Part shown: one piece after another, positions 3,631 to 27,946 of the stretch
How positions within the stretch are numbered: the first letter of the stretch is position 1
Layout: every line of letters starts with the position of its first letter
Assembly: GCF_023015625.1 (NCBI RefSeq)
Contig: NZ_JALKAH010000001.1
Coordinates: forward strand, 992,001 to 1,056,000
Reading direction: 5' to 3'
Source of the DNA: Yoonia sp. F2084L
GTDB taxonomy: Bacteria > Pseudomonadota > Alphaproteobacteria > Rhodobacterales > Rhodobacteraceae
Length of the DNA stretch: 64,000 bases
The notes under the pieces: generated by a model
Database searches by the model: none
Seen by the model: the letters and a program-made list of their open reading frames with translations, nothing else
Told to the model about the DNA's origin: nothing
Program-made: the position numbers and the translations under genes

Positions 3631-5088
<1,458 letters not shown>

Positions 5089-5136
5089 ACGAAAAGCTTA
5101 CGGCTTGGGTAAAGCAAAGCGGCGAAGGTATTCAGG

Positions 5137-20930: not shown

Positions 20931-21332
20931 TTAGGCGGGAACCAACATCGCGCTGATCGCCGATCCTTCGAGGATTTCGGCATCGCCCGCTGCACAAAGA
21001 TCACCACCGGGGATTTCAACATCGTGCTTTACGGCAAAGCTACGTTGCGCGACGTCTGTTTCCAACTCAATCGCGTTGCGCTGGCTGATTGCGGCCAAGG
21101 ATCCGCGCCCAACTTCGTTGCGCGCTTCGTTCAGCGCGGAATCAAGTCCGGCGTCGTAGGTGTAGCGCGGGCAGCTTTGCGCGATCTGATTGGCGATGTT
21201 CAGGCTCGCGTAATACTGCGGCGTTGACATCGCAAACAGCTTTTGCACCGCCGGATCATCCAGTGACCGCCCGCCCGCTGCACAAGCGGCCAGTGTCAAA
21301 GCCGCGCCAAACATCAATCCACGTGTCATCAT
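20931..21332 (-). CDS. Lipoprotein downstream of nuoF
   Basis: A 133-residue lipoprotein; the signal [21 protein letters not shown] has a lipobox LAAC. The mature part includes [20 protein letters not shown] and a second Cys near the C terminus (GDLCAAGD), a likely disulfide. The start at 21332 overlaps the nuoF stop by four bases (ATGA), which favours it over an upstream in-frame Met. It shares the general look of DUF5333-like proteins but I cannot place it firmly. Function unknown. Confidence 0.7.
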
Positions 21333-22615
21333 TCTGCTGCCATCCCTGCCATGCGTTTGTCTTTGATCCGGTCCTCGATCTCGTCCCGGAAGTTTTTTAT
21401 CAGCCCCTGGATCGGCCATGCGGCCGCATCACCCAATGCGCAAATCGTATGTCCTTCGACCTGTTTTGTCACGTCCAACAGCATGTCGATTTCTTCCACG
21501 CTCGCGTTGCCTTCCACCAGACGCGCCATCACGCGCATCATCCAGCCGGTGCCTTCGCGGCAAGGCGTGCACTGGCCGCAGCTTTCGTGTTTGTAGAATT
21601 TGGACAACCGCCAGATCGCCTTGATCATATCGGTGGAGTTATCCATCACGATGACCGCAGCGGTCCCAAGCGAGGACCCTTTTTCTTTCAGCGCATCAAA
21701 GTCCATCACCGCATCGCGCATGTTTTCGCCGCGCACACATGGCACGGATGACCCACCGGGGATCACCGCTTTCAGGTTGTCCCACCCGCCGCGAATACCG
21801 CCGCAGTGCTTTTCAATCAGCTCTTCAAAGGAAATCGACATTTCCTCTTCGACCACACATGGGTTGTTCACGTGACCGGAAATCGCAAACAGCTTGGTAC
21901 CAGCGTTGTTGGGGCGGCCCATGCCTGCAAACCAGTCGCCGCCACGGCGCAGAATGGTCGGTACAACGGCAATCGATTCAACATTGTTCACAGTCGTCGG
22001 GCAGCCATAAAGGCCCGCGCCCGCCGGGAACGGTGGCTTCATGCGCGGCATACCCTTTTTGCCTTCAAGGCTTTCGAGCAATGCGGTTTCTTCGCCGCAA
22101 ATGTATGCTCCCGCACCGTGGGTCAGGTAGATGTCGAACGGCCAACCGGATTTCGCGGCATTCGGACCCACGAGACCCGCCTCGTAGCATTCGTCAATTG
22201 CCGCCTGCAGCGCCTCTTTCTCGCGGATGTATTCGCCGCGAATATAGATGTAGCAGGCGTTGGCATTCATCGCGAAAGACGCAATCAGACAACCTTCGAT
22301 CAGCGTGTGCGGATCATGGCGCATAATCTCGCGGTCTTTGCATGTGCCGGGTTCGGATTCGTCGGCGTTGACGACCAGATAGGCCGGGCGCCCATCGCTC
22401 TCCTTGGGCATGAAAGACCATTTCAGTCCGGTCGGGAAACCCGCCCCACCCCGACCGCGCAGACCGGATGCTTTCATTTCATTGATGATCCAGTCACGCC
22501 CCTTTTCGATGATCGCAGCGGTGCCATCCCAATGGCCGCGCGCCTGCGCGCCTTTCAGCGTACGGTCATGCATCCCGTAAAGGTTCGTGAAAATCCGGTT
22601 CTCATCTTTGAGCAT
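21329..22615 (-). CDS. nuoF: NADH-quinone oxidoreductase subunit F
   Basis: A 428-residue 51-kDa subunit that binds NADH, FMN and cluster N3. Seen: [20 protein letters not shown] (FMN/NADH site), [41 protein letters not shown] and the N3 motif [14 protein letters not shown] with a fourth Cys in TICALGD. Length is normal. Its ATG overlaps the DUF5337-like stop by one base, and the following lipoprotein overlaps its stop. Confidence 0.98.
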
Positions 22616-22860: not shown

Positions 22861-23517
22861 TTAGTAAACGTCGCCCTTGTCGACCTTTTTTGAAAACTCG
22901 GTCGCGCCACCGGCGGCCAGCGTTTTAGCCTGCGGCACCCATTCGTCACGGGTCGCACGGCCTTTGAAGCCAGCAAGGTTGTCATCCATCCAGGCCTGTT
23001 CCTTGGGGCCCCAGTCAGCGATCTGGTCAAAGTGGTAGATGCCCATTTCGTGCAAGGTCTTTTCGAGTTTGGGACCAACGCCTTTGATCTGCTTCAAATC
23101 GTCCGGGCCGCCTTCGCGTGCCGCACTGAGGAACTTTGGCGTGCCATCGTCGCTGGATGCAACGGTTTCAGCGACCGGAGCAGGTTCTGGCTCAGGCGCG
23201 GGTTCTGGCGCCGGGACTGGTTCTGGCGCAGGAGCCGGTGCTGCTGCAACGGGTGCAGGCGCGGGCTCAGCAGGTGCAGGTGCCGGTTCGGCAACTGGCG
23301 TCTTTGCAACCGGTTCCTCAACCGCGTCCGGTCCCGGTGCTGGCGCACGCCAGCCAATCGCCAGTACAATTGCCGCAATCAGGCCGACGCCACCGCCGAT
23401 GCAGGCCGATGCAAAAAACGAGAAATCATAAAGAACGAATGCAACTCCGGCTGCAATAACGGCGAACAAGGCCGCCACGGCAATGATGCCCTGGCTGATC
23501 GGTGCTGTATCTTTCAT
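22861..23517 (-). CDS. Membrane-anchored protein with a helix-hairpin-helix domain shared with the NuoE tail
   Basis: A 218-residue protein in three parts: two membrane spans (about 9-31 and 35-56), a Pro/Ala/Glu-rich linker (about 58-120), and a C-terminal domain (about 139-195) with DDLKQIKGVGPKLEKTLHEM then FDQIADW, a helix-hairpin-helix-like fold. The same domain closes NuoE, encoded just upstream ([27 protein letters not shown]). The layout would place a flexible cytosolic domain next to the membrane. Annotation pipelines often call such proteins NADH dehydrogenase subunit E-like. Function is unknown; a complex I accessory role is inference. Confidence 0.8.
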   Translation of the reverse strand: MKDTAPISQGIIAVAALFAVIAAGVAFVLYDFSFFASACIGGGVGLIAAIVLAIGWRAPAPGPDAVEEPVAKTPVAEPAPAPAEPAPAPVAAAPAPAPEPVPAPEPAPEPEPAPVAETVASSDDGTPKFLSAAREGGPDDLKQIKGVGPKLEKTLHEMGIYHFDQIADWGPKEQAWMDDNLAGFKGRATRDEWVPQAKTLAAGGATEFSKKVDKGDVY

Positions 23518-23707
23518 CGTGTATCTTCTCCCTCAGGTGGCCGCTTGAGCAGCGGTGCAGACGTAGCGCGGCTGGTCTGCGTCAATTCGACCCATCCATG
23601 CGCCCCATAACATCTCTACCCGAAACTTTGCTGTTGGGTAAAGAAATACTGCAATTCAGTCCACTTAGTTGGCCACAAGCCCAGTAACGCGCACAATCAA
23701 AGGGCGC

Positions 23708-24763
23708 TTACTTGCCCTTCGCCAGATCTGCCGCCTGCGCCATCCAGTTGTCGCGCTCAATGCGGCCTTTGAATTTCAGACGGCTATCAACCCATGCGAT
23801 TTCGTCCATGGTCCATTTGGCGATCTGATCAAAGTGCCAGAAGCCAAGATCGTTCAAGACGCTTTCAAGCTTGGGTCCAACACCACTGATCTTTTTAAGG
23901 TCATCAGCACCACCATCACGCGGCGCCGACAGCGTTTCTGGCTGTTTTTCGGCAACTGGCGCAGCCGCTTTTGGTGCAGCTTTCACGGGCGTTGATTTGA
24001 CAGGCTTTGGTTTCGGCGTCGTGGCCTTTGCCTTTGGCGAAGGTGCCGCTTTGGCGTCTTTTACCCAAGGGGTCAGCAGTGGCACTTCAGTTCCATCAAT
24101 CCGCTTGATGGTATCACCGATATCCGTCGCAAGTTGCGCGCTGGCGTTATACTTAGTCTTACCGCTGTCATAGCCTTTCAGACTGGTCAGCCCTTTCAGA
24201 GGCTCGGCAGCAAAGCGGCCGTTTTGCGGGCCGGGCGTTGGAACGCGACCAGCGGCCAATTCATCAATGATTTCGCCCAACCGCTCGGCGGTCAGGTCTT
24301 CGTAGTAATCCTTGCCGATCTGGGCCATCGGTGCGTTTGCACAAGAGCCGAGGCACTCGACCTCTTCCCACGAAAACTTGCCATCTGCCGACAGGGCATG
24401 GGGCTTATCGGATATCTTGTCCTTACACACACCAATCAGGTCCTCGGCCCCACAGATCATGCAAGACAGAGTGCCGCAGACCTGAATATGGGCAATTGAC
24501 CCAACGGGCTGCAATTGGAACATGAAATAGAACGACGCGACCTCGAGCGCACGGATATAGGCCAGATCAAGCATTGCCGCGACATATTCAATTGCCGGGC
24601 GGGACAGCCAGCCTTCTTGCTCTTGCGCGCGCCACAAGATCGGGATGATGGCCGATGCTTGGCGCCCTTCGGGAAACTTCTTCATCTGTGCCTCGGCCCA
24701 TTTCTGGTTGTCTGGCGTGAAGGCGAATGTTTCAGGCTGGTCTTGGTAAAGGCGGCGTAGCAT
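23708..24763 (-). CDS. nuoE: NADH-quinone oxidoreductase subunit E with long C-terminal extension
   Basis: A 351-residue 24-kDa-type subunit, far longer than the usual 160-240. The thioredoxin-fold 2Fe-2S (N1a) ligands are C96, C101, C137 and C141. After residue 180 comes an extension: a Lys/Pro/Ala linker (about 238-273) and a helix-hairpin-helix domain (about 286-345) homologous to the end of the next gene's product. The first 180 residues are sufficient for the known electron-transfer role. Long NuoE tails are common in Rhodobacterales. Confidence 0.97.
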
Positions 24764-24836: not shown

Positions 24837-25139
24837 TCAGGCACAGGCCCCACCGGTGATCCGGAAGGTTGCCCCATCAATCTCGCCACGCCCCTCAGAG
24901 CGCAGTTCTGTCATCACTCGCGCCATATCTTGACGCGACAATACAGCGTCGGCCATGATCACATCGGTGTTGGCGCTGGTCAACGCACAGCCATTGGCCG
25001 CGACACTGCTGACAAAGCGTTCTTTGGCTGATTGTGGCACGACCATTGGCGTGGGCGCCGGTGTTGGTACTGGCACAGCAATTGGCACGGCACAGGCCGA
25101 AAGGCCCACAAATGCAACAAGGGTCAGTCTACCGATCAT
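24837..25139 (-). CDS. Small lipoprotein between nuoD and nuoE
   Basis: A 100-residue lipoprotein with signal MIGRLTLVAFVGLSAC (Cys16), a Pro/Val/Thr-rich spacer (VPVPTPAPTP) and a small mature domain (AKERFVSSVAANGCALTSAN, RSEGRGEIDGATFRITGGAC) with two further Cys. Unknown family. It is in the nuo direction, 73 bases before nuoE and 49 bases after the 65-residue membrane protein. Confidence 0.65.
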   Translation of the reverse strand: MIGRLTLVAFVGLSACAVPIAVPVPTPAPTPMVVPQSAKERFVSSVAANGCALTSANTDVIMADAVLSRQDMARVMTELRSEGRGEIDGATFRITGGACA

Positions 25140-26624: not shown

Positions 26625-27518
26625 TTAAGCCCTCGCTAAATTGTCTTGCCACCGCTGTGGCAGGGGCCCGACATTGCGCGCCACCCATTCATAGTGTTCA
26701 TTCAACAGCCCCAACGCGCGGGGGCGCAGCTTGTCCAGCATCACGACCTCAGGTCCCTCATTGGCCGGGCGGGCGACTTCTGCCTTGACCGGTTTAATGC
26801 CGAGGAAAGCGCAAAGCTTGGCCAGCCCGTCTGGTGTAAACAGGTCCTCAGTAAACTGGATCAACAACCGACCTTCGGGGATCACGCGACGCAGCTTGCG
26901 GATGATCTTGGGATAGTCGCCCCGCTCAAGGATATGCGTTTCTTGGCCCCGGTTCAGAATGCGATAGAGGATGTTGTTGGATTTCTTCTCGTAGACTTCA
27001 TGGTCCTGGCGCTGGCGGCGGGCCTGCATGCGGATATGCGACCAAAGGCGGTCCAGCGGATCGCGGATCAGATAGAGGAACTTCGTACTGGGTGACAGAT
27101 CGCGCATGCGCACAAGGTCATCATCGGAAAGGGTTGCATAATTGGGGGTGATGTCGCCCACAACCAGCGCCCCATCGCGGCCGGTCATCATCCATGCCGC
27201 GTAAGCACTGTCATCGCTGCGGTCCGCTTCAAGCGTCGCAATCAGGGCTTTCATCTCATTGATGCGGCGATCCAAGTTCTCAACCTGCCAGCCACGGCCT
27301 TCCGCGCCGGCTTGGTCCTGTGCCGCACGCATCTCTGCCAAGCGGGCCTGGTAGGCCACCAACTGCGGATCACGCTTCTCGGCATCAAAAGTATCCCAAT
27401 AATGGGCCTCTTTCACCGCAGGCATCGCGCAATCAGGGTGGTCGTGCAGATAGCGATAAAGCCAAGAGGTGCCGGCCTTCGTGGCCCCAACGCAATACAG
27501 GATGGTTGGTGCGGTCAT
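26625..27518 (-). CDS. Sulfotransferase family protein
   Basis: A 297-residue protein. The PAPS 5'-phosphosulfate loop is GATKAGTSWLYRYL near the N terminus and the 3'-phosphate site is FLYLIRDPLDRLWSHIRM. These two motifs define the heparan-sulfate-type sulfotransferase fold. The acceptor cannot be predicted; a glycan or exopolysaccharide is usual. The ATG at 27518 overlaps the GFA stop by one base; a GTG one codon earlier is an alternative. It sits between nuoC and nuoD, cotranscribed with complex I, which is odd for this activity. Confidence 0.88.
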   Translation of the reverse strand: MTAPTILYCVGATKAGTSWLYRYLHDHPDCAMPAVKEAHYWDTFDAEKRDPQLVAYQARLAEMRAAQDQAGAEGRGWQVENLDRRINEMKALIATLEADRSDDSAYAAWMMTGRDGALVVGDITPNYATLSDDDLVRMRDLSPSTKFLYLIRDPLDRLWSHIRMQARRQRQDHEVYEKKSNNILYRILNRGQETHILERGDYPKIIRKLRRVIPEGRLLIQFTEDLFTPDGLAKLCAFLGIKPVKAEVARPANEGPEVVMLDKLRPRALGLLNEHYEWVARNVGPLPQRWQDNLARA

Positions 27519-27946
27519 CACGGGTCACCGTCCGGCATATAATGCGCAAACACCTCAGCCTCGGTCATTGTTTTGGTGTCATTGGCCAAGGCGTAGTTCT
27601 CGGGCTTTTTGTCGATAAACACCTGAATGCCAATCTCGAACTGGCTGGGATCCTCGAAAGCCTGAATAGAAACGTGCTGGTTCTGGCCGTCCTGGGTTTG
27701 CCACAACAGCGACGAGCCACATTCCTTGCAAAACAAGCGCGCACCCCATTCGGAACCCTTGTAGGACCCCACTGGCGCGCCATCGTCAAAGACCACCGAA
27801 GACCCGCAATCAACGGACAGATACATCCCGCCCGACCATTTTCGGCACATCCCGCAGTGGCAGGCCCCTGCGCCAAGACCGCCGGGCGTGGGCGTCGCAG
27901 TGAACGTAACAGCACCGCACATACATTTGCCCGGCAAAGCAGCCAT
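27518..27946 (-). CDS. GFA family (CENP-V/glutathione-dependent formaldehyde-activating-like) zinc protein
   Basis: A 142-residue protein with the full GFA zinc pattern: C8 and C10 (CMCGAVTF), C29, C31, C34 (CHCGMCRKWSGG) and C73, C76 (FCKECGSSL). Family members include S-hydroxymethylglutathione-forming proteins, but most are of unknown substrate. It begins with a one-base overlap with the nuoC stop and is coupled to the sulfotransferase. Thus it is inside the nuo operon. Confidence 0.9.
   Translation of the reverse strand: MAALPGKCMCGAVTFTATPTPGGLGAGACHCGMCRKWSGGMYLSVDCGSSVVFDDGAPVGSYKGSEWGARLFCKECGSSLLWQTQDGQNQHVSIQAFEDPSQFEIGIQVFIDKKPENYALANDTKTMTEAEVFAHYMPDGDP

Follow-up and report, generated by a model that had tools for sequence, protein, structure and literature searches.

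Why should NuoE, a subunit of the complex I peripheral arm, and the product of the gene beside it end in the same domain? The question is raised by a 64,000-nucleotide stretch of the Yoonia sp. F2084L genome (hereafter the window), whose minus strand carries nuoE, a gene for a 218-aa membrane-anchored protein (the anchor) and nuoF, in that order. The nuoE gene (23708..24763, minus strand; 351 aa) was recognised as an open reading frame and by its match to NF009040, the model of NuoE with a C-terminal extension, which it passes with 580.4 bits against a cut-off of 514. Its product comprises a [2Fe-2S] thioredoxin-like core (residues about 1-235), a basic linker of Pro, Ala and Lys (about 236-277) and a C-terminal helix-hairpin-helix (HhH) domain of 74 aa (residues 278-351; 23711..23932, minus strand), the latter identified by genome search, model and conservation. 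The anchor gene (22861..23517, minus strand), identified by its reading frame, PDB homology and an AlphaFold2 model, encodes three parts on the same strand: a two-helix membrane hairpin (residues 7-29 and 34-55; 23353..23499), placed by the model and by alignment to 8yy9_O; a flexible linker rich in Pro, Ala and Glu, acidic in the window genome (residues 56-126; 23140..23352), delimited by sequence and model; and a C-terminal HhH domain with the conserved end GGxTEFSxxVxxGDVY (residues 127-218; 22864..23139), supported by model and conservation. Downstream lies nuoF (21329..22615, minus strand), an open reading frame that also served as locus marker in our survey. Scans for a promoter and a terminator around the anchor gene counted 2 versus 1.1 and 3 versus 3.6 in shuffled sequence, about the level of chance, and signals of its own were rejected for this gene. 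Further inserts in the nuo cluster (24837-25139, 26625-27521 and 27518-27946, all on the minus strand) we take to resemble a small lipoprotein, a sulfotransferase and a GFA-type protein.

A search of the whole window genome with the 74-aa NuoE tail retrieved the query itself, the anchor tail (60% identity, E 1.6e-23) and, as the sole other match, the C-terminus of ribosomal protein L21 (53%, E 3.4e-19). The likeness of the NuoE and anchor tails is far above chance, as a sequence-only reading of the locus had recognised; given the L21 copy, the domain is not limited to this pair. The motif residues listed in that reading (D-L, G-G-P, Q-A-W, GR, R and W) are near-invariant across 113 NuoE tails and 89 anchor tails, and its two-span anchor with a Pro/Ala linker reappears in the AlphaFold2 model, in which the linker is of low confidence and the C-terminal helical domain reaches a pLDDT of about 95. 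Predicted singly, as had also been suggested, the NuoE tail matches the anchor tail in the order and spacing of its main helices; the NuoE core was poorly modelled (mean pLDDT 69, shallow alignment), and only the tail portion was therefore used. In a fold search with the NuoE model, the 50 matches listed all represent chains of the NuoE type, from complex I or NuoEF, and carry no information on the tail.

The anchor as an orthologue of protein-O

A single-sequence search of the PDB with the anchor matched 8yy9_O (E 2.5e-39) and 9wqv_a (8.5e-32), and a profile of 52 relatives matched 8yy9_O (3e-84, positions 1-254), 9wqv_a (2.9e-63) and 9lts_A (2.3e-10). By their titles these entries represent the RC-LH1 of a marine photoheterotroph (8yy9), the LH1-RC of Rhodovulum sulfidophilum (9wqv) and the RC-LH1 of D. 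shibae (9lts), and reaction-centre L chains are present in all three. The modelled hairpin superposes on 8yy9_O over 52 residues (rmsd 1.5 A, Z 7.7); by sequence, the hairpin alone had no match in the PDB, and Foldseek with the anchor model returned nothing at E up to 0.001. The anchor is thus an orthologue of protein-O, and is known from RC-LH1 structures, not from complex I.

The protein-O family and its NuoE-like tail are already in print, the D. shibae complex being described in PMC12079452; a literature search of partial coverage found no paper for 9WQV and none for 9LTS. According to the available portions of PMC12079452, protein-O of Dinoroseobacter shibae (PDB 8YY9/8YZ2/9JPB) sits between RC-L and LH1, with a function that is called unknown; its gene lies between nuoE and nuoF, and its tail resembles that of NuoE. 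In the RC-LH1 maps the hairpin is ordered, with contacts to lipid, LH1 and RC; its cytoplasmic end, which is the disulfide end, touches loops of RC-L and RC-H, while the tail is without density. The window anchor shares with this protein the nuoE-nuoF position, the two-helix hairpin, the flexible linker, the C-terminal domain and the final tail, but lacks both cysteines of the Cys10-Cys59 disulfide described there. Chain 9wqv_a of the Rhodovulum sulfidophilum LH1-RC likewise combines a two-helix hairpin and a flexible linker with the same C-terminal domain; it lacks the final tail of the window anchor, and has no cysteine at the aligned first position (in an alignment without its residues 1-7). 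The same portions of PMC12079452 place the hairpin of protein-U/Y of Rhodobacter sphaeroides similarly between RC and LH1 and, by their description alone, its sequence is quite distinct from protein-O.

The window genome is phototrophic, with two Photo_RC genes and PufX, and contains no match to PufC. With PufX present, no PufC match and no protein-O cysteines, the window species therefore differs from the D. shibae case. The cysteine pair is found in 36 of 47 anchors from non-phototrophs, 13 of 17 from PufX- phototrophs and 8 of 24 from PufX+ phototrophs, its absence from the window hairpin being a common PufX+ state (16/24). The disulfide varies among relatives, and was hence treated as non-defining for the protein-O family.

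Occurrence of the two tails across genera

For the survey, one genome was drawn from each of 140 genera in the family of the window species, all with NuoE, and each nuoE-nuoF locus was examined (at loci L115 and L174 nuoF was not reached). Phototrophy was called by PF00124, over the cut-off in 116 of 296 genomes and in 54 of the 140 genera. Both the NuoE tail and the anchor were found in 78 genera, the NuoE tail alone in 35, the anchor alone in 10 and neither in 17. An obligate NuoE-anchor pair is excluded by these counts. The constant co-occurrence of the two genes that a pairing of their tails would lead one to expect does not hold, and the wide occurrence of one domain without the other, which the sequence-only reading had counted against its own proposal, is largely what we found. 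A raw association of anchor and NuoE tail (138 loci, 78/34/10/16; Fisher p 0.006) and one of anchor and phototrophy (138 loci, p 0.011) both failed to reach significance once the comparison was confined to phylogenetically independent pairs, only 13-14 being supported (13 for anchor and NuoE tail). Beyond the family, the NuoE tail was present in 1 and the anchor in 0 of 60 fetched loci, hand-picked, mostly as the better-scoring ones, from 111 non-family genomes with NuoE.

The anchor was present in 41 of 54 phototroph and 47 of 86 non-phototroph genera. Protein-O is therefore not only a photosynthesis protein, and a dedicated photosystem protein was rejected as its description. Thirteen of the 54 phototroph genera (one cut locus counted in) have a nuo locus without the anchor, which is also absent from that of Phaeovulum veldkampii (L309). 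A replacement of protein-O by PufX was likewise rejected, the anchor being found in 24 of 30 PufX+ and 17 of 24 PufX- phototrophs (at G130, one of the PufX- loci, the contig ends within the locus). In a plasmid collection, 7 of 72,556 records matched the anchor query, over 28-37%, i.e., the tail. No paper on protein-O in non-phototrophs or on the function of the NuoE tail was recognised in our partial search of the literature. Nor did that search turn up the spread of protein-O in non-phototrophs, the split between hairpin and tail detailed below or the link to PhaH, all three of which appear to be new.

NuoE tails of the same signature occur in loci that lack the anchor (e.g., L307 of Roseibium suaedae, and L176), and the signature is as frequent with the anchor (46/78) as without it (21/35; p 1), so that the anchor was rejected as its cause. 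Because such tails occur without an anchor, the NuoE tail is probably the older one and the anchor tail derived from it. Within one genome the two tails are slightly more alike than between genomes (0.667 vs 0.627, permutation p 2e-4). At the DNA level, recent copying of the domain from one gene to the other is visible in the three loci examined, namely L051 (254 nt at 89%), L087 (300 nt at 82%) and L099 (300 nt at 98%); in L099 the copies form a direct repeat (3874-4173 and 4836-5135) of nuoE tail and anchor tail, and the 98% identity points to recent copying inside the locus. The extended final tail is shared by anchors (65 of 89) and NuoE sequences (63 of 113), and was found in 0 of 10 soluble copies of the domain (3 of these 10 not parsed).

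Such likeness, copying and shared final tail would be in keeping with a direct contact of the two tails, or with their joint binding of a single protein, by which complex I and RC-LH1 (or complex I and the anchor in the membrane) would be joined in a respiratory-photosynthetic assembly, the more so as the genes adjoin and both tails would lie in the same compartment, the disulfide end of the hairpin being cytoplasmic in the available portions of PMC12079452. We nevertheless regard this scenario as unlikely: 35 genera have the NuoE tail without the anchor and 10 the reverse, the NuoE signature is indifferent to the anchor, only 9 of 78 NuoE tails have their own partner as best match, and the domain is also carried by L21 and S2. 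The same-genome excess may be explained by gene conversion between neighbours or by shared ancestry. The linker charges in the window are +7 and -10, which would recommend opposite charges as a docking aid; over 78 pairs, however, equal signs (48) outnumber opposite ones (23) and the correlation is positive, and this aid was rejected.

Hairpin and tail in relation to phototrophy

The hairpin follows phototrophy and the tail does not. Phototrophy requires 14 parsimony changes on the hairpin tree, 22 on that of the NuoE+NuoF core and 30 on that of the anchor tail, each with 88 rows; for the 78 rows of the NuoE-tail tree the number is 23. When nearest phototroph and non-phototroph loci were paired, with close relatives excluded from the reference, the phototroph hairpin was the more phototroph-like in 37 of 41 pairs, compared with 25 of 41 for the anchor-tail control, such greedy pairs being not strictly independent; within a core distance of up to 0.25 the hairpin was right in 18 of 19. 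Strictly independent pairs, of which only 10 were supported, gave on average 5.9 right, 0.4 wrong and 3.7 tied for the hairpin (median p 0.06), and 2.4 right against 1.9 wrong for the tail. A held-out set of 60 loci outside the 140 genera (30 phototroph and 30 non-phototroph, best by tail score) yielded 51 anchors, 5 of them of a different single-span type. For the remaining 46, nearest-neighbour calls of phototrophy over four neighbour settings were right in 41-43 cases by hairpin and 27-31 by tail, and for all 51 in 44-46 and 30-33, respectively, with the proviso that held-out genera may be near training genera. The hairpin likewise told PufX+ from PufX- phototrophs in 15 of 17 pairs, whereas the tail, as control, did so in 6 of 17. 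The columns that differ most strongly are those where the first helix begins; phototrophs have hydrophobic residues there, the other species polar or basic ones.

This is the pattern expected if the hairpin binds RC-LH1 in phototrophs. From these comparisons we conclude that the hairpin is probably fitted to RC-LH1 in phototrophs, the window species presumably included, and would serve elsewhere in other species. A simpler scenario would make protein-O a mere fitting piece of RC-LH1 like protein-U, with the tail a passenger copied from nuoE. PMC12079452, in the portions available, speculates on a protein-U-like role in assembly for a protein whose tail remains unseen in the density; the hairpin evolves along with phototrophy and PufX, and in some loci the tail has indeed been copied between the two genes. 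A fitting piece would hardly be expected, though, in the 47 of 86 non-phototroph genera that keep the protein, nor would a passenger be its best conserved part: in a same-genus pair the anchor tail is 86% identical and the hairpin 68% (dN/dS about 0.05, with dS near-saturated), and across the family the mean identity of the tail is 0.61-0.70 versus 0.23-0.41. We thus view this scenario as improbable.

The position of the gene invites another explanation, namely that every species uses the anchor as an accessory factor or assembly factor of complex I, its presence in RC-LH1 being secondary. In 88 of the 140 genera, phototroph or not, the gene is flanked by nuoE and nuoF, and a weak structural alignment relates the hairpin to one small chain of complex I from mammals (9w2v_Y, Z 5.4; 8ud1_1Y, 4.8; 8uca_AM, 4.7); the hairpin aligns likewise to chain K of photosystem I, and helix pairs commonly give such scores. 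Set against this are the ordered state of the hairpin and its contacts in the RC-LH1 maps of PMC12079452, as available in part, and the closer tracking of phototrophy and PufX by the hairpin than by the nuo flanks. No complex I chain is found among the anchor's PDB profile matches either, a result which such a factor could still accommodate. On balance we think it very unlikely.

Carriers of the domain and a putative shared ligand

The NCBIfam models that match the tail domain are those of NuoE, L21, S2 and the phasin PhaH. The C-terminal part of the PhaH model NF045508 matches the NuoE tail (6.7e-23) and the anchor tail (2.1e-18), with 82.1 and 67.4 bits, short of the whole-protein cut-off of 250; by this measure NuoE and the anchor are not phasins, and what they share appears to be the domain only. 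Among the control genomes, Caulobacter vibrioides gave a score above the cut-off of the PhaH model, and 0 of the 13 others did. Salinas 2023 is said to be the primary work on Caulobacter PhaH. In a sample of the class, matches at E up to 1e-8 occurred in 13 of 134 genomes, none over the cut-off, and it is therefore the domain, not PhaH, that is shared. L21 and S2 with a C-terminal extension (NF008915/NF008916 and NF008966) carry the same domain after a linker, on alphaproteobacterial ribosomal proteins; in the L21 copies examined the GGETEFS tail is missing.

Ten genomes of other alphaproteobacteria gave a match to the domain; in 7 of them it is preceded by a membrane span, as judged by hydropathy (eight proteins), and in the remaining three it is found on L21. 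Loci L380-L385, L388 and L395 from these bacteria combine varied N-terminal membrane spans with the same tail, the L384 frame having two tail copies. A second, single-span type of anchor (around MFRDWGFLLGEIW...GWLLFGR) with the same tail was observed in L026, L283, L288, L308, L334, L337, L356, L359 and L366, with no NuoE seen in L283, L288 and L308. A further, soluble gene with this tail lies between nuoE and nuoF in L068, L086, L107, L116, L124, L136, L152 and L158. By eye the N-termini of the soluble copies look phasin-like, a 55-aa N-terminal piece of one was assigned no family by Pfam, and the C-termini match the PhaH model far under its cut-off (three of the eight, and L091). A 975-aa frame (G173:C98:4481-5605) has three copies of the domain. 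Residues 135-205 of the anchor align weakly (Z about 4.5) with a large-subunit protein of the trypanosome mitoribosome (6hix_BS, 6yxx_BS, 7aoi_BS), a chain different from the one named bL21m there (AV).

What might such a domain bind? The sequence-only reading had found a usually DNA-binding fold puzzling in a respiratory locus, and a relative does offer a precedent. In Caulobacter PhaH, as reported in the available portions of a review (PMC13052382), the N-terminus binds granules and the HhH domain binds DNA non-specifically, which makes PhaH a tether between two cell structures; its C-terminal HhH is of the same sequence family, and in place of its granule-binding front the window proteins have a membrane hairpin or NuoE. 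For NuoE and the anchor, DNA binding by the tails would be an extrapolation from this relative, and our partial literature search turned up no experiment that addressed it in NuoE or protein-O. In these tails the hairpin Lys is kept in 88% (NuoE) and 87% (anchor), and both loop Arg of KGRxxR in 99% and 100%. A DNA tether is made less plausible by a slightly negative median net charge of the domain (NuoE -2, anchor -1), by Glu in 93% of NuoE and 96% of anchor tails at a position that the usual HhH Ala occupies in most (80%) of the 10 soluble copies, and by Pfam HhH models that stay under their gathering cut-offs on the anchor (HHH_5 18.2 vs 27, Cdd1 18.7 vs 25.5, IMS_HHH 15.8 vs 24.4 bits). The anchor tail does align to HhH regions of NusA (Z 5.1) and of Y-family polymerases (Z 2.9-4.6), scores too weak to classify it.

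In this context, we put forward that complex I and, in phototrophs, RC-LH1 are flexibly tethered to one and the same ligand in the cytoplasm, for which the nucleoid is the likeliest candidate, an explanation to which we give a little less than an even chance. The protein-O orthologue would hold its cytoplasm-facing HhH domain on a long flexible linker, with the two-helix hairpin fixing it in the membrane. In phototrophs the hairpin would lie between the reaction centre and the LH1 ring, as seen in D. shibae and presumed for the window species; in non-phototrophs the anchor would need another site, for which complex I or its vicinity is plausible, the gene being part of the complex I operon. 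NuoE would display the same domain on the peripheral arm, and both flexible arms may reach for the same ligand, for which the nucleoid is suggested by PhaH; the tethers might also have a positioning role. Of the two proposals made from the sequence, the tether to a common partner thus remains the best idea, whereas a private NuoE-anchor pair does not survive the genera with only one of the two. The repeated fusion of the domain to membrane anchors, complex I, granules and ribosomes gives it the look of a tag by which its carriers dock to one ligand in the cytoplasm, and DNA appears to be the only ligand with reported support that we found (PhaH, in the available portions of PMC13052382). A broader version, which we hold to be rather doubtful, would see in this HhH module a general alphaproteobacterial tag for docking large machines to the nucleoid or to nucleic acid: complex I via NuoE, the photosynthetic core via protein-O, granules via PhaH, ribosomes via L21 and S2, and further membrane anchors.

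A protein reported as a photosystem subunit thus turns up in the nuo locus of many non-phototrophs. That only its hairpin tracks phototrophy suggests an older, broader role for the tail and an adaptation of the hairpin to RC-LH1. If the broader docking role is real, respiratory and photosynthetic complexes would be positioned relative to the chromosome; with PhaH as precedent, the attachment of such membrane complexes to the nucleoid becomes a testable question.
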